Shown: positions 9,036 through 17,880 of the stretch, piece after piece
How positions within the stretch are numbered: position 1 is the first letter of the stretch
Layout of the letters: each line of letters starts with the position of its first letter
Position numbers and translations under genes: made by a program
The notes under the pieces: generated by a model
Databases searched by the model: none
Told to the model about the DNA's origin: nothing
The model's input: only the letters and a program-made list of their open reading frames with translations
Source: a virus
Strand: one strand, 5' to 3'
Virus record (IMG/VR): IMGVR_UViG_3300009154_000300
Span: 1 to 22,672 of that record
Length of the DNA stretch: 22,672 bases

Positions 9036-9815
9036 TTAGTTTAGATAGAAGTCAACGGGTAATGAATAAGAATCAAGCATTTCTTGTTCTAACTTTGTGA
9101 TTTCTTCAGATGCCTCATCAAAGATCTTATCACCATTCAACATTACACCGCCAGGTAATTGAACGCCTTGAAACTTCTTCAAGTTTGCACCCCAATTACG
9201 CTTGATAAGTGCAGTTGCGTATTCTTTTAACCAACGATCATTCCATACAGAAACATAGTCTTCTGGTTTAACCAGTGCATGACACTCTGCAATCACAACA
9301 GTTCCTGCATTGACTGCTGTACCCCAACCCCAATCACAGAATAACTTATGCATATGACGTTGAAATCGAATAGGCACTTCACCAGTAAACATCAACTCAA
9401 GTGAACGCAGATGTTGCATCGTCAAAGTATAGTTAATATATGATGCAGAAGTGAAATCATATAGTTCGTTCAATCTAAGTTGATATCTAAGATCGAACAT
9501 ATTATTCTGTGCAATCGAATCAGAGATTGGAAATATTCTGGTAACACCAATAATATTAACAGATGCATTTGACGTATCTCTTGTCACATCTGGTGACATG
9601 TTGATGTACTTGTTTGCAATATCAGTAGCGTCTAATCTCTTGATGTAATATACTTTCTGAAGTGCATCAAAGTGATAGTCTTGCCAATATTGAAGTGCAT
9701 CATCGATTCTGTCCTCGACTTGATCATCATCAACGTTAATTTCAATGACAGGAAATCCCAGTCTTCTTAGACAATAAGATTTAAATATATCTCTTGTAGA
9801 TACTAATGTTGCCAT
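9036..9815 (-). CDS. 13: Neck protein, T4 gp13-like (head completion)
   Basis: The 259-residue product should join the portal to the neck and close the filled head together with gp14. Recognisable parts are the start (TRDIFKSYCLRRLGFPVIEI, about 7-26), the acidic VDDDQVEDRIDDALQYWQDY (28-47) and the middle LMFTGEVPIRFQRHMHKL. T4 gp13 is 309 residues, so this is a shorter form. The Shine-Dalgarno is weak (GGAAAT), but the gap upstream has a late-promoter-like motif 28 nt before the ATG. This gene begins the conserved block 13-14-15. Confidence 0.94.
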   Translation of the reverse strand: MATLVSTRDIFKSYCLRRLGFPVIEINVDDDQVEDRIDDALQYWQDYHFDALQKVYYIKRLDATDIANKYINMSPDVTRDTSNASVNIIGVTRIFPISDSIAQNNMFDLRYQLRLNELYDFTSASYINYTLTMQHLRSLELMFTGEVPIRFQRHMHKLFCDWGWGTAVNAGTVVIAECHALVKPEDYVSVWNDRWLKEYATALIKRNWGANLKKFQGVQLPGGVMLNGDKIFDEASEEITKLEQEMLDSYSLPVDFYLN

Positions 9816-9897: not shown

Positions 9898-10248
9898 TCA
9901 CGCATAGATTATACCAGGAATATGCGTTGCAGATCCGCTACCATCGGTGTTGTATAGATACACAATATATGAACCTGCCGTTTTAGCTGGAGCTACAAAA
10001 GATAGTTGAGTTTGTGATAGATATGTAACAACACTCGCCCGAGTTCTATCAACATATACTGTAGTGAAAGATACAAATCCAGAACCATTTACTGTAATTA
10101 CATCTCCACCACTAACATTCGCAGATGTGCGACCAGAAGGATATTGAATAGAAAATACCTTTAAAGTAAGAAAAGGAACACTTGCTGAAAATTTATCCGC
10201 TGTTATTGCATTATTAGCGATTGACTTTTCTTTAATCTTACTTACCAT
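9898..10248 (-). CDS. Stand-alone IPT/TIG domain virion protein
   Basis: This 116-residue protein has a short N-terminal segment containing NNAITADKF (12-20), a pattern often seen near the start of phage fibres, then one IPT/TIG immunoglobulin-like domain (about 27-116). Domain marks are GGDVITVNGSGF (48-59), TVYVDRTRASVV, LSFVAPAKTAGSYIVYLYN (82-100) and the final HIPGIIYA. It is a clear paralogue of the first 110 residues of the protein starting at 17880, which has GGQTITINGINF, LTFPAPARSAGTYNLYVYN and FIPGISYS in the same places. No signal peptide is visible. It starts 8 bp after the preceding gene, with a TAGGG-like ribosome-binding site. Probably a small decoration or fibre-associated protein. 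Confidence 0.75.
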   Translation of the reverse strand: MVSKIKEKSIANNAITADKFSASVPFLTLKVFSIQYPSGRTSANVSGGDVITVNGSGFVSFTTVYVDRTRASVVTYLSQTQLSFVAPAKTAGSYIVYLYNTDGSGSATHIPGIIYA

Positions 10249-10256
10249 CTTATTGA

Positions 10257-10751
10257 TTACCCTATAGGATCAGTACGAGGAGGTGGAATATTATGAAAGA
10301 TAGTTGACGGATGAGGTAACTTATACTCACGCGGATCTTCTACATCCACAATCGTAGAATCTTCTACGAATCTAATATCTTTCTCTGGATTAGGAATGCG
10401 TTCGCCTACCAGTCTGAATGGTATAGAATCATGACATGTTGCACAATCTAAATGACTCACTGGCCACCAATCATTAATATTGTCATATTCACCCAATGGA
10501 CCGGTGAAATACGTCAAGGCTTGACCATCGATATGAGTCTTTCCATTAAAATGCATCGTCGGATGTGTATCAGTTTTGGAAAATTTAGTAAATGCAGTCC
10601 AATCGTAAAGTTCAATCACAGTTAAGCCGTCAAAATTTACTCCTCCAAACTCAGATGTTTGAATTGTCTCTCCGGCAGGATCGGTGGTTGGATCATATGG
10701 AAATTGTGATTCTAGTTCATCCAGTGATGGTATTAATGTATAATCGATCAT
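10257..10751 (-). CDS. Hypothetical protein with CATCH (CxxCH) motif
   Basis: I do not recognise this 164-residue protein. It is acidic and Pro-rich, rich in Asp/Thr, and has a block of His, Trp and Cys: HPTMHFNGKTHIDG (63-76), DWWPVSHLDCATCHDSIPF (94-112). The only two cysteines form CATCH at 103-107. CxxCH is the heme-attachment motif of c-type cytochromes, but no signal peptide is present, so covalent heme in the periplasm is unlikely; metal binding by Cys and the nearby His residues fits better. The C-terminus is Pro-rich (NIPPPRTDPIG). Its ATG overlaps the previous stop as ATGA, so it is coupled to the Cys-rich gene upstream. That pairing suggests a shared metal-related role, which is inference only. 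Confidence 0.6.
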   Translation of the reverse strand: MIDYTLIPSLDELESQFPYDPTTDPAGETIQTSEFGGVNFDGLTVIELYDWTAFTKFSKTDTHPTMHFNGKTHIDGQALTYFTGPLGEYDNINDWWPVSHLDCATCHDSIPFRLVGERIPNPEKDIRFVEDSTIVDVEDPREYKLPHPSTIFHNIPPPRTDPIG

Positions 10752-10957: not shown

Positions 10958-11902
10958 TTATTCCAATACTTTTTCGAATTTTTCTCGATACACACCAACT
11001 CCTGCTGTATAACCTGCAGGTGTTAGTTCGCTTTGTATAACAACTAGTCCTGAAGAATTGTAAAATGACTTGGCTTCTTCACTTTGAATTGCCTTGGTAA
11101 ACTTCTCCTCAAACCAATCTCTAATTTCTTTTGCGGTATTTTTAGGTAGTCCAATTCCCCAAGAAGAATAAAATACCAAATTTTTATCAAAGTCACGAGC
11201 TAATGGTACTGATGCAAAGTCTTTGATTTTTGATTCGCTGAATATACTGATAAACTTGGTTTTGCCAGAGTCGCGTAAGTTGATTGCTGTTGTTAACGGT
11301 ACAAATGCGATTTTTGTTTCCTTCTGTGCAACTGCAACTTGTTGCTCGACTGGTCCTTTATAATTAACTATAGTTACTTTATCTTCAGTTACATCTATTA
11401 TCTTAATAAAATATTTTAATACTACTTCGGGCATGCCACCACTTGATGATATCAATATTGGAGTTGAAGAAGATTTTATTAGATTTTTTAAATCAACCAA
11501 ATTATTTAAAGGAGAATCGGCGCTAACTACCGCCACCACCGGACTTGCGGCCATCGTAAGGACTTTATCAAAATCTGATTCCTGATATTTTACGATCCCT
11601 TTGTCTACAATATGTGAGAAAGTGAAAGCACCTCTGCCAATTACTTTTAAATGCTGTCCATCATTTGGTTTACCAACAAATGCGTTCAAGTCAACGATAC
11701 CACTGGCCCCTGGTCTGTTGTTGATGGTAAATTTAACTTGTGGATTTTGTTTTTCAACAATACTAGACAAATTACGTATGACGGTATCATCACCAGATCC
11801 AGGTGGGAATCCTACATATGCAGTAATTGGTTTTGTAGGTTCCCAGGCAAAAGCTTGTGTGCAAAATAAAGCAAATATCAATAATAATTTTTTAAAAATC
11901 AT
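10958..11902 (-). CDS. Bug/TctC-type periplasmic solute-binding protein (auxiliary metabolic gene)
   Basis: The 314-residue protein starts with a Sec signal peptide (basic MIFKK, a hydrophobic core, AFA at 17-19 before W20). The mature part shows the Bug family layout: YVGFPPGSGDDTVIRNL (29-45) for the ligand-binding loop, NNRPGASGIVDLNAF (61-75), PNDGQHL (79-85), SSSGGMPEV (152-160), VNYKGPVEQQVAVAQ (179-193) and a late stretch DFASVPLARDF (228-238). Family members bind carboxylates (citrate, tricarballylate, glutamate, nicotinate and others) for tripartite tricarboxylate transporters or signalling. The length is normal for the family, and no transporter membrane subunits are nearby. A strong AAGGAGAG precedes the ATG, and the outer-membrane barrel gene lies 17 bp upstream. 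Presence in a T4-like structural region is unusual. The ligand cannot be read from sequence. Confidence 0.9.
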   Translation of the reverse strand: MIFKKLLLIFALFCTQAFAWEPTKPITAYVGFPPGSGDDTVIRNLSSIVEKQNPQVKFTINNRPGASGIVDLNAFVGKPNDGQHLKVIGRGAFTFSHIVDKGIVKYQESDFDKVLTMAASPVVAVVSADSPLNNLVDLKNLIKSSSTPILISSSGGMPEVVLKYFIKIIDVTEDKVTIVNYKGPVEQQVAVAQKETKIAFVPLTTAINLRDSGKTKFISIFSESKIKDFASVPLARDFDKNLVFYSSWGIGLPKNTAKEIRDWFEEKFTKAIQSEEAKSFYNSSGLVVIQSELTPAGYTAGVGVYREKFEKVLE

Positions 11903-11919
11903 TTAATCTCTCCTTCAGA

Positions 11920-12534
11920 TCAAAATTTACGAGTGTATGTTAATTGATAAGCAGTTTGATCTGCACTGGTAGCGTTGCTTACTTTATCGAGGTTAATTCC
12001 AATCGTATCTGTTTTGGTCAAATCATACGACAAACCCATTCTCAAAGTTTTGTTAGTGTCGTTTTGAACATCGGTGGTGCTGAATGCTTGTCTCCAACGA
12101 TACCCTAATTTGGCATGAAGATCAAAAGGCGCATGATAAATCACACCCAATTCTTCGCTGTTATAAGGAAACGACTGTGAACCGTTTACCGTCTTTACGC
12201 CAATACCTAAACGAGCATAAGCGTCAACTGGTCCAAACACTGCTCGTTGTACAGTAAGTCCAGTCTCAACACGATTTCCTGCTCTATAAGATTTGGATGT
12301 TACTTTACCTGCAGCATCGACGTTACGTTCGTTTTGATTTGGTGCAAGTCCAAAATCTGCTGCAAAAAGATCTGTAAATTTTTGCTTAACCTGTAGGTTG
12401 ATCTGTTGTTGATCTGGTCCAGTGTGATTGTCAACTGATTGGTTTTGATAACCAACAGTTACAGATGTGCCTGCTGCCAGGGCAGTCGAAGTGATCGCAG
12501 TGCTAAGTGCTGCAGCAATAATAATTCTCTTCAT
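11920..12534 (-). CDS. Outer-membrane beta-barrel protein, phage-encoded
   Basis: The 204-residue protein has a clear Sec signal peptide (MKRIIIAAALSTAI, with ALA near 18-20). The mature part alternates short polar and hydrophobic residues as beta-strands do, for example SVTVGYQNQSV, QQINLQVKQKF, VDAYARLGIGVKTV, HAKLGYRWRQAF, TLRMGLSYDL and AYQLTYTRKF. It ends in Phe, the usual signal for insertion by the BAM complex. The strand count is about ten, similar to small porin-like or OmpW/OmpX-sized proteins, but no specific family is recognised. A strong AGGAGAT ribosome-binding site precedes the ATG. It sits in one operon with the Bug-type protein, which suggests that both act on the host envelope. 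Alternatives are a receptor-masking or superinfection-exclusion protein. Confidence 0.82.
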   Translation of the reverse strand: MKRIIIAAALSTAITSTALAAGTSVTVGYQNQSVDNHTGPDQQQINLQVKQKFTDLFAADFGLAPNQNERNVDAAGKVTSKSYRAGNRVETGLTVQRAVFGPVDAYARLGIGVKTVNGSQSFPYNSEELGVIYHAPFDLHAKLGYRWRQAFSTTDVQNDTNKTLRMGLSYDLTKTDTIGINLDKVSNATSADQTAYQLTYTRKF

Positions 12535-12602
12535 GTGTATCTCCTGTATAATGAGTCATTCAATAAATTGATAAGAAAACAAAGAACGTTTTTAGTATAT
12601 AG
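12535..12602 (-). other. 68-bp gap before the outer-membrane barrel gene
   Basis: This AT-rich stretch holds the ribosome-binding site AGGAGAT near its end. No ATAAATA core is visible. A short 5-bp inverted repeat, TCAAT/ATTGA, is the only hairpin. A promoter is possible but not clear. Confidence 0.3.
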
Positions 12603-14063
12603 TCACGAATTAAAATTAAAGGTTGTAGGATTAATTGGTTCACAATTTTCGTCTGGAAGAAATAATGTTTGGATGGTAACATCATATGATCCTGAGTGTT
12701 CATCTCCGACTATCTTTACGGGATTTAATATTTCAAGTTCATTAACATTTTGTTTCAAAATTATTGTTTTTTGCACAGTTGATTCGTTGAGAATCGACAC
12801 CATTTCTCCAACAAAAACAAAAAAGTTATCTTTAGTCTTCGATTTATTTATTTGATATCCACAGACGATGATTGATTTTCCAGTAGGTTTGCCAGAAGAA
12901 CTTATTGATTGATGAAAACGATATACTTTCCAGTCAATCAATGATTTTATTTCAGAAAAATTATTGTGATTATTAATGATCACACCACCCGGATCCATAC
13001 TATATGGATATTTGCATGGTTGATCAAGAATGTAATCGGTACCTTGATTTTCAGAATAATTTAATTTTAATTGCTTTTTATTCCATTCAACATCAATACA
13101 ATTTGCTTGTATCAGTGTCATATTTCTAGACCACGCATATCCTGTTTTGAGTTTAACATCATAATATTCTTGATCATTAGTATACTCTAAGATTAATCGT
13201 TTAAGTGGTAGTTTAATTCGAGCAGAATCTTCCATACCCATCTCTTCAAGTGATAGACCCAACGCATAGTGGTTAAAATCTCGATTATCAAAAAAATGAA
13301 ATAAGTTGTGATTCAATTTGGACTCACTAAACCTCGCACACATTCTCAGTTGAACTTCTTGATACCGCATGTTAAATCTCAAACTTCTCCCAAACTCTTG
13401 AGCTGTCGTAATCTCTGTGGGAAAATTACTCACATAATTTTCAGCATATTGATGATACTCGGAAGTTTTTGGATTTAATAATATTCGCCAAGAATCATTC
13501 GTCCAATTTATTATTTTTTCATACGGTCCTGATACTGGTTTAGCACCAAAAAGTTGATCACATATTTCTCCAGTAACTGTTATACTTTTATCATTAATTA
13601 ACTGATTCAGATTTTCATTAAACTTATCAATCGTGATATCTATGAATTGATGATTTGTTATTATTTCCTGATATAGTTTAGGATATTCTCGTCGAGAATT
13701 ATCATTACCCAATATAATCAATTGATTAGGATTTTTTAAGTGCATTTTTAAAGCGCAATATACACTAGTACTGTCTATTCCTCCACTCCACATCAATTGG
13801 ATTGGTACGTTTCTTTGATTACTGAGTTCTATTAATTCAAGAGATCTATCTTCAACTAATTGATTAAAATTGTATTTTTTTGTAATATCATAATTTTCTA
13901 TTGGTTGCATAACTTCAATATTTGCATCATTGCCGATGATGTTCATTCGATCCACAAAATATAAAAATGTAAAATCGTTGAATACATCAGGACGAAAGGC
14001 TCTTCTAAAATTCACCATTGGAATATGATTTGCTGTTAGATATATGTGATAGTAGTATTTCAT
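12603..14063 (-). CDS. Asparagine-synthase-type PP-loop ATP pyrophosphatase without glutaminase domain
   Basis: This 486-residue protein carries the PP-loop SGGIDS (93-98, in QLMWSGGIDSTSVYCALK) that binds ATP pyrophosphate. The later motif TGEICDQLFGAKP (164-176) matches the acidic SGxxxDExFGG element of asparagine-synthase C domains. FHFFDNRDFNHYAL (255-268) and KLPLKRLILEYTND (284-297) fit the conserved end of that domain. No N-terminal Cys nucleophile is present, so the glutamine amidotransferase half is missing; ammonia or another nucleophile may be used, or the enzyme may adenylate a different carboxylate. Residues 370-486 form an extra beta-rich C-terminal part that I do not recognise. 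The region is visibly more AT-rich than its neighbours. The substrate is unknown; asparagine synthesis is one option. Confidence 0.78.
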   Translation of the reverse strand: MKYYYHIYLTANHIPMVNFRRAFRPDVFNDFTFLYFVDRMNIIGNDANIEVMQPIENYDITKKYNFNQLVEDRSLELIELSNQRNVPIQLMWSGGIDSTSVYCALKMHLKNPNQLIILGNDNSRREYPKLYQEIITNHQFIDITIDKFNENLNQLINDKSITVTGEICDQLFGAKPVSGPYEKIINWTNDSWRILLNPKTSEYHQYAENYVSNFPTEITTAQEFGRSLRFNMRYQEVQLRMCARFSESKLNHNLFHFFDNRDFNHYALGLSLEEMGMEDSARIKLPLKRLILEYTNDQEYYDVKLKTGYAWSRNMTLIQANCIDVEWNKKQLKLNYSENQGTDYILDQPCKYPYSMDPGGVIINNHNNFSEIKSLIDWKVYRFHQSISSSGKPTGKSIIVCGYQINKSKTKDNFFVFVGEMVSILNESTVQKTIILKQNVNELEILNPVKIVGDEHSGSYDVTIQTLFLPDENCEPINPTTFNFNS

Positions 14064-14106: not shown

Positions 14107-14114
14107 TATTTATC
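14107..14114 (-). promoter_or_regulatory. T4-type late promoter candidate upstream of the PP-loop gene
   Basis: The minus strand reads GATAAATA, the same octamer as before gp13. It lies 43 nt upstream of the PP-loop gene ATG and overlaps the stop codon of the upstream adhesin. It could drive the accessory cassette PP-loop, barrel and Bug protein as a late transcript. Confidence 0.45.
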
Positions 14115-17100
14115 AACCGCCAGAAGAACAGTTGGCATTTACATCACATGTAGTATATGAACCACAACTACCGTCAGGCCAATACTTTGTATTGTCGCAA
14201 CTGCCATTGCCAGCACAATTAGAATTGTATACTGTACCATATACGTTGTTAAGATCATAACCACCTCTAGTTGGACACGTTTGTCCAACATACGCGCCAG
14301 TACTAGTGCCATAACTGTTAAATGCATATACATATGCTTTAATATTATATTCTCTTTGATTGTAAGGAATACTAGATTGGTAACCTGATTTATTTGAATC
14401 ACTTGGTTGTATGATGCCATATTGATTTGTTACTGGTTTACTTGTAACTGTTCCATATCCAACAGTTGAAAACAAGAATGTTCCATCTGCTGGCTGACCT
14501 GGCCAAGCCTTCACGCCATAATAATAGTCAACTCGATATCCAATTATAGGCAAAGTCACCGCAGTGGGAGCGGTCCACTGAACTGCTAAAGTTCCTACAT
14601 ATAAACCTATGCTTGGGTTGCGTGGTACTTGAAAATAAGTTGGGCTAACTGGAGGATTTGGCACTGTGATGGTTGCAGGTCCCCATACTATTTCTCCTTT
14701 AATAAGTTCTGGATCTACTCCGCTCGAATATGGGTCGACCCAACCACTAACTTGTGATTGTCCAGTGAATGTATAAACTCGATACCCCGAACGTGTAGTG
14801 GTGTTAACAGTGTAGGTCAAATTAGATGAAATGTAGACAGGGGCAGCATATGTCGTAGGATATGCTATAATAACTACTCCAGAAGAACCTATTCCGCCTG
14901 AACCGTATGTATAACTCTCAGCTCCGGCAAGGAAACCTTGTTCGCCGCCCCCGCCGCCACTGCCTCTATTAGGAATTGATGCCGAAAATCCATTTACATT
15001 CGTGGTGCTAGTAGAAGCGCTTGCACCCGCTCCCGCACCTCCTCCCCCACCGGCACCGCCGAGTGCGGCCGCACCCGTGGAACCAAGTCCTGCGCTACCT
15101 CCACCACCGCCGCCACCGTATTCGACGGAAACTCCAGTTATACTACTGGTATAAGCAAGACCTCCTCTTCCTGCACCAGAAGTATTGCCATTTTGCCCAC
15201 TACCACCTGCTCCTGCACCACCACCACCGACAGCATATCCACCGCCACCATTATATGTAAATCCCGTTTTACCTGCAGTAGCACCACCAAATCCAGGACC
15301 GCGAGTGTCTCCTCCGTATCCTCCTTGGCCAATGTACTGTTCTGTGTTGCTAGTTGAATACTGCATAGCATAAACGTATCCACCATTTTTAACAGTGTAT
15401 GCGCCAAATATGGTCGGCGAACTTCCACGTTTACTGTAATCTAGGTAAAAAGTTTGTGAATCGGGATTGGAGATTCTAACACTCGTAACAACGCCACTGC
15501 TGACTGAAACGCTTCCTGTTATAATTTGTCCCCCCGCGCCGCCGCCGCCGCCGTTAGGCGCGCCGGACGCGCCCTGTCCACCAGCACCAATCATGAATAA
15601 TTCAACTGTTGTTGGTGCTGATAAGTTAGGAGTAATACTATTACTTGAGCCACTACTAGACCCATTACCTGCAGCATTAGTTGCATACACTGTAAATGTG
15701 TAACTTGTTCCAGCGGTCAATCCAGACACCGTTATTGTACCACTTCCAGCTTGACTTAGTGTACCAGTTATGTTTCCAGGACTTGAAACTGCGGTATAAC
15801 TAGTGATTGCTGATCCACCATTACTTCCAGGCGCAGTGAATGTAACCGTTGCACTTGTTGCACTAGCTACTGTTGCAGTACCAATTGTTGGTGCACCAGG
15901 TATAGTATATGGTGTGGCACTATTACTTGCAGAACTTGCAGAACCTGTACCGATAGCATTCGTAGCTGTTACTGTAAATGTGTATGCAGTTCCATTAGTC
16001 AATCCTGATACTGTGATTGTACCACTTCCAGCTTGACTTAGTGTTCCTGTAATACCACCCGGACTACTGGTTGCGGTATAACTGGTGATTGGAGATCCAC
16101 CATTGCTCGCGGGCGCAGTAAATGAAACTTGTACGGTTTGACTCGCAGATCTTGTTGCAGTACCAATTGTTGGTGCTCCAGGTACAGTAGTTGTTGCGAT
16201 ACTGTTACTTGGAGCACTACTTGCACTATTACCAACTGAGTTTGTAGCATATACTGTAAATGTATATGATGTTCCTGAAGATAGACCATTAACAGTAATA
16301 GGACTTGTCGATGATGTTCCTGTTATATTACCAGGAGATGATACGGCAGTGTATGATGTGATAAGTGCGCCACCGTTACTAGCTGACGCAGTGAATGTAA
16401 CTGATGCACTTGTTGCGCTTGTTGCGGTTGCGGTACCGATTGTAGGTGCGCTTGGTACGGAAACAGGAGTTACACTATTACTTGAAGAACTTGCAGAACT
16501 TTGACCTGCAGCATTGACTGCTTTTACTGTGAATGTGTACGCAGTTCCAACCGTTAATCCAGATACTGAAATAGGACTTGATGTTGATGTTCCTGTTATA
16601 TTTCCTGGAGATGATGTTGCAATATATTGTGTTATAGGAGAATTACCATCATATGCAGGAGGTGTAAATGCAACCGATGCTGTTGTTGAACTAATCGTTG
16701 CAGTACCAATCGTTGGTGCATTAGGAACAGTCTTAACATAAAACAATAATATACGTGTTGATGTTCTGTTTGTAGTTGCAGATGTTGCCGTAATCAAAGA
16801 AGTTGTGTTTGCTTGAGCTGATAAAGTTCCTGTGATTGTACTACCAGAAATACTTAGTCCAGCTGGTAAAGTGTTTGCAGTATATGATATAGATCTACCA
16901 GCAGCAGAAGATGCACTTAAAGTTTGAGTAATTGAAGAACCAACGTTACTGTTGATTAGTGTGCCATCTGCTGGTGAATTCCAAGTAACAACGTCTGAAT
17001 TAACTTGAAACTTAATATTTCTAGTTGATGTTTTATTTGTTGTTGCAGAATTTGCAGTAATTAAACTATTAGTTGTTCCTATTGATGACGGTGTACCTGA

Positions 17101-17880
17101 TATAGTATTACCAACTATACTCACACCTGTTGGTAAAGTATTTGCAGTATATGATATAGATTTACCAGTAGCAGAAGATGCACTTAAAGTTTGACTTATT
17201 GAACCGTATTCATAAGAAGTTACTGTTGTACCATCCGCTGGAGAAATCCATGTAACAATATCAGGACTTATTGTGATACTAAATGGCCTAATAACACCCT
17301 GATTTTCTAAGTCATAAGCTTCAATTGAAAATGAATATGTGGTTGATCCGACAACAGAACCAGATATGCCAGTTATTGCACCAGTGTTTGCATTTAAGGT
17401 AGCGCCAACCGGTAATGTTCCACTATACAATCTATATTTAATTGTTGAGTCACTTGATGCGGATAAAACAGTAACATTTGAAGATAACTCTACAGTCTCG
17501 TAAGATGTACCAATAGACCCAGATGGAGTTGACCATAATGGTATTCCCGAATAACTAATACCTGGAATGAAAAGTGTTGTAGCACCATCTGGATTATAAA
17601 CATAAAGATTATATGTTCCGGCACTTCTTGCGGGTGCAGGGAATGTTAATTTATTCGAAGAAACAAATGTTACATTAGTTACTAATGTTGTATCAATGTA
17701 TACATAACAACCGAAAATGAAGTTTATGCCATTAATTGTTATAGTCTGCCCACCAGTAGTATCTGCTGCAGTGTCATCATCAAAATATCCAACAGAAGTT
17801 ATTACTGGAAACTTGACAGCTATCTTATCTAACGATATTGATCCGGTTCCAAATGCACTCGTTTTTGCTTTATTTACCAT
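14113..17880 (-). CDS. Modular adhesin: IPT/TIG, He_PIG-like, FN3 x4, glycine-rich, Cys-rich tail
   Basis: The 1255-residue protein is a chain of surface domains. Residues 1-111 are a fibre-like start plus an IPT/TIG domain, paralogous to the gene at 9898-10248. Residues 112-384 hold three He_PIG/Ig-like units (for example TANTLPTGVSIVGNTISG at 245-262 and again near 334). Residues 385-752 are four FN3 repeats starting PxAPTIGTAT. Residues 765-1005 are glycine-rich with runs such as GGGGGAGGQ and GGGGGGG, like the polyglycine tips of S16/T2-type gp38 adhesins. An FN3-like segment follows (about 1075-1200), then six cysteines in the last 55 residues. No signal peptide is present, as expected for a virion protein. 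It starts 4 bp after the previous adhesin. Most likely receptor recognition; position on the virion is unknown. Confidence 0.82.
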   Translation of the reverse strand: MVNKAKTSAFGTGSISLDKIAVKFPVITSVGYFDDDTAADTTGGQTITINGINFIFGCYVYIDTTLVTNVTFVSSNKLTFPAPARSAGTYNLYVYNPDGATTLFIPGISYSGIPLWSTPSGSIGTSYETVELSSNVTVLSASSDSTIKYRLYSGTLPVGATLNANTGAITGISGSVVGSTTYSFSIEAYDLENQGVIRPFSITISPDIVTWISPADGTTVTSYEYGSISQTLSASSATGKSISYTANTLPTGVSIVGNTISGTPSSIGTTNSLITANSATTNKTSTRNIKFQVNSDVVTWNSPADGTLINSNVGSSITQTLSASSAAGRSISYTANTLPAGLSISGSTITGTLSAQANTTSLITATSATTNRTSTRILLFYVKTVPNAPTIGTATISSTTASVAFTPPAYDGNSPITQYIATSSPGNITGTSTSSPISVSGLTVGTAYTFTVKAVNAAGQSSASSSSNSVTPVSVPSAPTIGTATATSATSASVTFTASASNGGALITSYTAVSSPGNITGTSSTSPITVNGLSSGTSYTFTVYATNSVGNSASSAPSNSIATTTVPGAPTIGTATRSASQTVQVSFTAPASNGGSPITSYTATSSPGGITGTLSQAGSGTITVSGLTNGTAYTFTVTATNAIGTGSASSASNSATPYTIPGAPTIGTATVASATSATVTFTAPGSNGGSAITSYTAVSSPGNITGTLSQAGSGTITVSGLTAGTSYTFTVYATNAAGNGSSSGSSNSITPNLSAPTTVELFMIGAGGQGASGAPNGGGGGAGGQIITGSVSVSSGVVTSVRISNPDSQTFYLDYSKRGSSPTIFGAYTVKNGGYVYAMQYSTSNTEQYIGQGGYGGDTRGPGFGGATAGKTGFTYNGGGGYAVGGGGAGAGGSGQNGNTSGAGRGGLAYTSSITGVSVEYGGGGGGGSAGLGSTGAAALGGAGGGGGAGAGASASTSTTNVNGFSASIPNRGSGGGGGEQGFLAGAESYTYGSGGIGSSGVVIIAYPTTYAAPVYISSNLTYTVNTTTRSGYRVYTFTGQSQVSGWVDPYSSGVDPELIKGEIVWGPATITVPNPPVSPTYFQVPRNPSIGLYVGTLAVQWTAPTAVTLPIIGYRVDYYYGVKAWPGQPADGTFLFSTVGYGTVTSKPVTNQYGIIQPSDSNKSGYQSSIPYNQREYNIKAYVYAFNSYGTSTGAYVGQTCPTRGGYDLNNVYGTVYNSNCAGNGSCDNTKYWPDGSCGSYTTCDVNANCSSGG
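14866..15588 (-). repeat. Glycine-rich region (residues 765-1005)
   Basis: Repeated runs of Gly with Ala, Ser and single aromatic residues. On DNA level several runs use GGC, GGG and GGT in G+C-rich islands (15531-15580 and 14945-15120) that stand out from the AT-rich surroundings. The likely structure is bundled polyglycine helices, as in gp38-type adhesins (inference). Confidence 0.7.
15538..15553. repeat. (GCC)5 trinucleotide run in the glycine-rich region
   Basis: Five GCC units plus one G on the plus strand encode consecutive Gly codons GGC on the minus strand. Such an in-frame run could gain or lose units by slippage without breaking the frame. Confidence 0.7.
15637..15699 (-). repeat. 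63-bp block shared with the neighbouring adhesin (copy A)
   Basis: Matches 18842-18904 at 62 of 63 bases. It encodes the end of an FN3 unit (TFTVYATNAAGNGSSSGSSNS) in both genes. Third codon positions are kept too, unlike other FN3 copies. Confidence 0.9.
15854..15902 (-). repeat. 49-bp block shared with the neighbouring adhesin (copy A)
   Basis: Identical over all 49 bases to 19050-19098. It encodes the start of an FN3 unit (PGAPTIGTATVASAT). Confidence 0.9.

Follow-up and report, generated by a model that had tools for sequence, protein, structure and literature searches.

A gene block shared by two unrelated phages encodes a TctC-type binding protein, an outer-membrane barrel and a PP-loop enzyme and may augment host solute uptake

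The locus described here raises the question why a T4-like phage should carry, between the genes for its tail fibres and those for its neck, an AsnB-like enzyme, an outer-membrane protein and a periplasmic solute-binding protein, and whether these three serve a common purpose. The window, by which we mean the whole stretch of DNA that was analysed, is the 22,672-nt record IMGVR_UViG_3300009154_000300, a fragment of a T4-like phage whose recognisable genes all lie on the minus strand. After three fibre genes comes the trio, in the transcription order PP-loop protein, outer-membrane barrel (OMP) and TctC, then genes for a DUF6171 protein, a 164-aa protein and a TIG-domain protein, and gp13, gp14 and gp15; beyond these come two more fibre-type genes and gp16, gp17, gp18 and gp19, the last four named by position and homologues. 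The preliminary description had announced three consecutive genes between fibre genes (the nearest at 14113-17880, upstream) and neck genes (here gp13/gp14, downstream), a late-promoter-like motif ahead of them and two small Cys-containing genes behind them, and all of these are present (Table 1). The terminase gp17 is closest to that of T4-like cyanophages (about 55% identity), but a cyanophage reading of the window is unsupported, psbA being absent from 24 related records. Searches for RNA families and tRNAs returned none.

Table 1. Coordinates of the trio and of the features that adjoin it in the window
Feature	Position	Strand	Evidence
AsnB-like PP-loop ATP-pyrophosphatase/ligase, 486 aa, without glutaminase domain	12603..14063	-	WSGGIDST, weak Asn_synthase matches, phage homologues
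Outer-membrane beta-barrel (OMP), 204 aa, signal peptide, C-terminal Phe	11920..12534	-	PF13505 E 1.6e-5, strand-like alternation, L002 homologue 64%
TctC/Bug-type periplasmic solute-binding protein, 314 aa, signal peptidase I-type signal	10958..11902	-	PF03401 E 8.6e-17, structure-profile matches, phage clade
DUF6171 small Cys (zinc-ribbon-like) protein, 68 aa	10748..10954	-	PF19668 E 9.7e-8; phrog_13558 E 1.2e-15
164-aa protein, two Cys, last gene of shared block	10257..10751	-	L002 homologue
Cys-rich C-terminal tail of upstream FN3/Gly-rich fibre protein	14113..14290	-	resembles fibre tail upstream of L002 cassette
Late-promoter-like GATAAATA	14107..14114	-	overlaps fibre stop codon, 51 nt upstream of PP-loop start

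Judged from its sequence, the membership of the binding protein in the TctC/Bug family is secure. It matches PF03401 with 62 bits (cut-off 27) over profile positions 4-244 of 274, and a profile of eight phage TctC sequences matches the structures of BugD, Bug27 and TphC-type (terephthalate-binding) proteins with E-values of 1e-23 to 1e-24, and that of 25hk, another TTT binding protein, with 5e-29. A cleavable export signal, MIFKKLLLIFALFCTQAFA^W as judged by eye, precedes the mature protein; the same AxA^W end recurs in the TctC of contig L002 (see below), and close variants are found in other phage homologues. The signature loop of the TTT family has been defined as PFxAGGxxD (PMC8556258). 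The window protein has GFPPGSGDD, in which the F, the first G and the D are kept and the P, the A and the second G are missing, and this partial conservation would count against a role in uptake.

No partner for the binding protein was detected among the phage genes. The TctA permease (PF01970) is absent from 16 phage records, among which are all the large TctC carriers, in a search whose positive controls matched, and neither TctA nor TctB occurs among the ORFs of the window. Consequently, a phage TctC could act only with a TctAB permease of the host. Such orphan binding proteins are compatible with membership of the TTT family, for which large numbers of binding proteins per genome are known (PMC5994714).

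In a phylogenetic tree, nine phage TctC sequences, including that of the T4-like phage G031, form a group separate from the 22 bacterial sequences (support 100/100); the bacterial sequences are mainly from one order, the G031 protein forms a long branch with unusual composition, and the root is arbitrary. The TctC pair of another T4-like phage, G026, sits among the bacterial sequences and outside the phage-only clade, which implies at least two captures by phages. A scan of genome contigs gave no bacterial relative of the phage clade, and the nearest TctC proteins of Burkholderiales lie outside it, so that no host was assigned. Within the clade, dN/dS is 0.07-0.14, which indicates purifying selection, synonymous sites being near saturation for the window and L002. 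The invariant peptide EKQNP of the phage proteins is partly a search artefact, as it was itself a search pattern. On sequence grounds, a phage lineage kept under purifying selection fits a role in uptake.

The second exported protein appears to be a small barrel. Its match to PF13505 (25.6 bits) is just below the cut-off of 28.7 bits, that of its L002 homologue reaches 20.7 bits against the same cut-off, and the window protein matches Phage_OMP (PF24653) with an E-value of 0.011. Its signal peptide ends in AxA and the terminal Phe is shared with the L002 homologue; the export signals on both barrel and binding protein that had been described beforehand, and this terminal residue, are thus all in place. 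The alternating hydrophobicity typical of barrels was seen in 54 ten-residue windows versus 19.8 in shuffled sequences (0 of 1000 as high); TctC and gp14, taken as controls, were not raised, and for gp13 the value was 39 of 500 shuffles. AlphaFold2 models on shallow alignments (pLDDT 33 for the OMP, from two sequences, and 40 for a second model) were not used. The OMP profile found no match in 300 Burkholderiales genomes, in a search run without a positive control. The L002 protein weakly resembles Lom of phage lambda (phrog_108, E 0.018), and dN/dS for the gene is 0.26. A length of 204 aa is that of 8- to 10-stranded barrels, which are often non-conducting. The protein therefore need not be a porin, as the preliminary description had taken it to be in its pathway, and its role may lie in permeability or in exclusion.

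The first protein of the trio contains a PP-loop that begins at residue 92 with WSGGIDST. Four divergent phage homologues share this motif and the residues D169, K284, K288, K304 and K306 without exception. Homologues are found on L002 (43% identity), on L186 from G031 (24% over 331 aa, E 3e-22) and on L190. The SGGIDS loop, a GExxDQLFG segment recognised by eye and a Lys pair near the end of the domain are shared with the synthetase domain of AsnB and with PP-loop ligases, although the G031 copy lacks the Glu of GExxD. Unlike AsnB, the protein has an extra C-terminal region and gave no match to an N-terminal glutaminase domain, and its family scores are below threshold (Asn_synthase, E 0.043, 13.9 bits, cut-off 21; asn_synth_AEB TIGR01536, E 0.0067, 15.5 bits, cut-off 267); hence we call it AsnB-like and not an asparagine synthase. 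Foldseek with a model of the protein gave weak PP-loop-type matches (LarE and GMP synthetase, E about 4e-3). The dN/dS value is 0.26.

A search of 50,697 deposited phage records with each of the three proteins found none. Only the 99-kb siphovirus contig IMGVR_UViG_3300032249_000925 (genome G001, locus L002) has close relatives of the trio; there, a fibre ORF with a Cys-rich tail is followed by genes for the PP-loop protein, TctC, OMP, DUF6171 and a homologue of the 164-aa protein, the order of TctC and OMP being swapped relative to the window. The identities are 43, 70, 64 and 55% for the first four, respectively, and 41% over 150 aa for the last (ORF 9904-10359, E 1.5e-31). G001 is not T4-like: it has a lambda-type J tail protein, an HK97-type head protease and other portal and terminase families, and gp13 was looked for and is absent. 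The same five-gene block in unrelated phages with a swapped order makes the trio more than a set of chance neighbours and implies that the block has moved between them and was rearranged internally, and the concern that the trio might not be conserved elsewhere is answered by this second, unrelated phage. Between the OMP and DUF6171 genes, L002 also has an inverted repeat at 9608-9700 (TATTGCTGTA/TACAGCAATA), possibly a terminator or a processing site.

The trio is absent from the same position in close relatives of the window. In seven contigs whose gp14 is 90-94% identical (L004-L010) and in an eighth with 87% (L011), the gap between fibre gene and gp13 is covered and is either empty or holds other genes, in one case a DUF6171 variant. 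In other relatives (L083:4184-9927) the gap is filled by ORFs that resemble, by eye, glycosyltransferases, sugar-nucleotide enzymes and kinases, which makes it a general cargo position.

The fibre tip was probably transferred together with the cassette. In both phages the fibre protein directly upstream of the PP-loop gene ends in a Cys-rich tail with related spacing; the similarity is modest (an equally good alignment was obtained with 3 of 2000 composition shuffles), and none of the other loci retrieved has the motif. As to the small genes downstream, DUF6171 homologues occur in L002, L004 and L023, so that the gene is part of the shared block yet is also present without the trio. A CATCH (CxxCH) motif in the 164-aa protein, which has no signal peptide, was considered as a haem site and rejected, since the L002 homologue lacks it. 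The stand-alone TIG-domain ORF (9898-10248) is paralogous to the N-terminal part of the 1255-aa fibre (E 7e-22, 39% across 116 aa) and looks like a fibre base that became detached or was duplicated.

A wider search recovered TctC, at 31-34% identity, from a further ten viral contigs of other lineages, with neither a PP-loop nor a barrel gene adjacent. In eight of the ten (L160-L167) the gene lies near nrdA-, nrdB- and glutaredoxin-like genes and adjoins a methyltransferase-like ORF, and in the other two it adjoins other non-fibre genes. The methyltransferase-like ORF (L161:5697-6425) is on the strand opposite to TctC throughout L160-L167, and a similar ORF is found in L168 and L169. Altogether, TctC is present in 7 of 46 related or TctC-bearing records, including the near-complete T4-like G026 and G031, which were not chosen for TctC, and in two of the seven T4-like records longer than 150 kb. 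G026 has two tandem TctC genes that are 56% identical (L185:7923-9841), a capture independent of the clade of the window. In G031 a homologue of the PP-loop protein and a second PP-loop ORF precede TctC, the PP-loop relative at about 1.1 kb from it, and the gene for a barrel of the YfaZ type, which has a signal peptide, is found some 3.9 kb beyond. BLASTP detected no homology between this barrel and the window OMP, which makes it a recurrence of the type and not of the gene. The whole run (L186:5797-13032) comprises the two PP-loop ORFs, TctC, a GNAT-like ORF, several small unassigned ORFs that resemble 2OG-oxygenases by eye, and the YfaZ-type barrel. G013 has a PP-loop homologue, and TctC was not detected there.

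The trio is probably expressed late in infection, together with the structural genes, considering that the motif NATAAATA is also found 30-59 nt ahead of gp13, gp18 and gp19 and that an endolysin gene follows the cassette in L002. In total the motif is near chance on the minus strand (7 versus 5.4 expected), and four of the seven copies lie within 60 nt of a gene start, where about 0.3 would be expected (p about 2e-4, by our own arithmetic). Late expression fits a change of the cell surface, or release, at least as well as the supply of nutrients; a late-type motif and a location among structural genes are not what one would expect if a gene is to supply replication.

Of the single functions in the block, the capture of solutes by TctC has the best support, and it forms the basis of our main explanation. 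We tentatively favour, while holding it at somewhat less than an even chance, that the trio is a horizontally exchanged and probably late cargo cassette whose core is an augmented uptake of solutes by the host. TctC would be exported to the periplasm, bind a small carboxylate with high affinity and pass it to the host's own TctAB permease, the presence of which is assumed here, much as the PstS of cyanophages passes phosphate to the permease of the host. The barrel would insert in the outer membrane of the host, where it may either help the same solutes, or related ones, to enter or alter the cell surface, and the PP-loop protein may be a cytoplasmic enzyme of the AsnB/beta-lactam-synthetase type that adenylates a carboxylate. 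That enzyme could act on the imported acid, the tie being proximity in two contexts; PP-loop and TctC genes also occur separately, which counts against reading the block as an uptake cassette. The preliminary description had gone further and proposed a single pathway from porin to binding protein to amidation or adenylation. What stands of it is a conserved trio of non-structural genes, by their families, with exported products and a TctC lineage compatible with uptake; that the three genes form one pathway is not supported, given the TctC genes without PP-loop or barrel neighbours and the PP-loop gene of G013. A mobile uptake route in the full sense, in which the barrel admits a carboxylate, TctC captures it for the TctAB of the host, the AsnB-like enzyme converts it and the whole is exchanged between unrelated phages with the fibre tip, seems to us rather improbable.

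Alternatively, the barrel, alone or jointly with the periplasmic protein, may mask the receptor or exclude superinfection by altering the surface of the host; sister phages and debris would then no longer compete for the progeny. We consider this unlikely as an account of the trio. The cassette would in that case travel with the fibre tip, as an exclusion function has to correspond to the receptor in use, and the related Cys-rich fibre tails upstream of both trios, the promoter motif common to gp13, gp18 and gp19, the endolysin gene of L002 and the weak likeness of its barrel to Lom all agree with this. In fact, the joint transfer with the fibre tip leans slightly towards exclusion or surface change for the barrel. 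However, a TctC-family protein and a PP-loop enzyme are left unexplained, the similarity of the fibre tails is modest, no fibre gene adjoins TctC in the other phages that carry it, and a PADLOC search for a defence system gave no match.

Equally unlikely, in our estimate, is that three separately useful morons were gathered at one tolerated site by the fibre genes and moved together once, with no pathway in common. Different genes occupy the same gap in close relatives, TctC and PP-loop homologues occur independently, and the PP-loop protein diverges much faster than TctC (43 versus 70% identity), as loosely linked cargo would allow. On the other hand, the block was kept despite the internal swap of order, and a PP-loop relative and TctC are again close together in G031 among other neighbours. 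That the three proteins are parts of the virion, as their location among fibre and neck genes might suggest, is very improbable in view of the signal peptides on OMP and TctC, the fact that none of the three matches a structural family and the TctC genes that other phages carry outside structural clusters.

The closest known counterpart of the augmented solute uptake proposed here is PstS of cyanophages and other phages; this gene for a periplasmic binding protein is found in nine cyanophages, and its function has been validated (PMC10987575). Both are phage genes for a periplasmic high-affinity solute-binding protein, PstS phages usually lack the rest of the transporter (PMC10987575, PMC6359870), and by analogy phage TctC would likewise use a permease of the host. 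In contrast to PstS, the window TctC is of the TTT type and not of the ABC type, belongs to the carboxylate and not the phosphate class, has a separate evolutionary origin and is accompanied by genes for a barrel and a PP-loop enzyme. With bacterial BugD, Bug27 and TphC it shares PF03401, a signal peptide and a near full-length profile match to solved structures, whereas its separate phage clade, its deviating loop and the lack of TctAB nearby set it apart. Like lambda Lom, the Phage_OMP of cyanophages and the CsgG pore of methylophages, the OMP is phage-encoded and aimed at the outer membrane of the host; it differs from Lom and Phage_OMP in having no above-threshold match, and from CsgG, which its authors tie to lysis (PMC9004378), in fold. 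In the open literature searched, no previous description of a phage TctC came to light, the nearest published case being a TctA domain match on a SUP05 virus contig (PMC4164917). Thus PstS, Lom-type barrels and CsgG pores are precedents for the parts, and the combination and its exchange appear to us to be new.

The binding proteins encoded by phages have so far been mainly those for phosphate (PstS). A deep lineage of TctC proteins in phages would extend viral binding proteins to organic acids in heterotrophic hosts, and would point to the supply of carbon or of cofactor precursors as something that is managed by the virus. That a myovirus and a siphovirus have exchanged the block, probably with the fibre tip, provides a defined gene set for a direct test of nutrient versus exclusion roles, and suggests that viruses trade a set of genes to alter the food uptake or the surface presentation of the infected cell.
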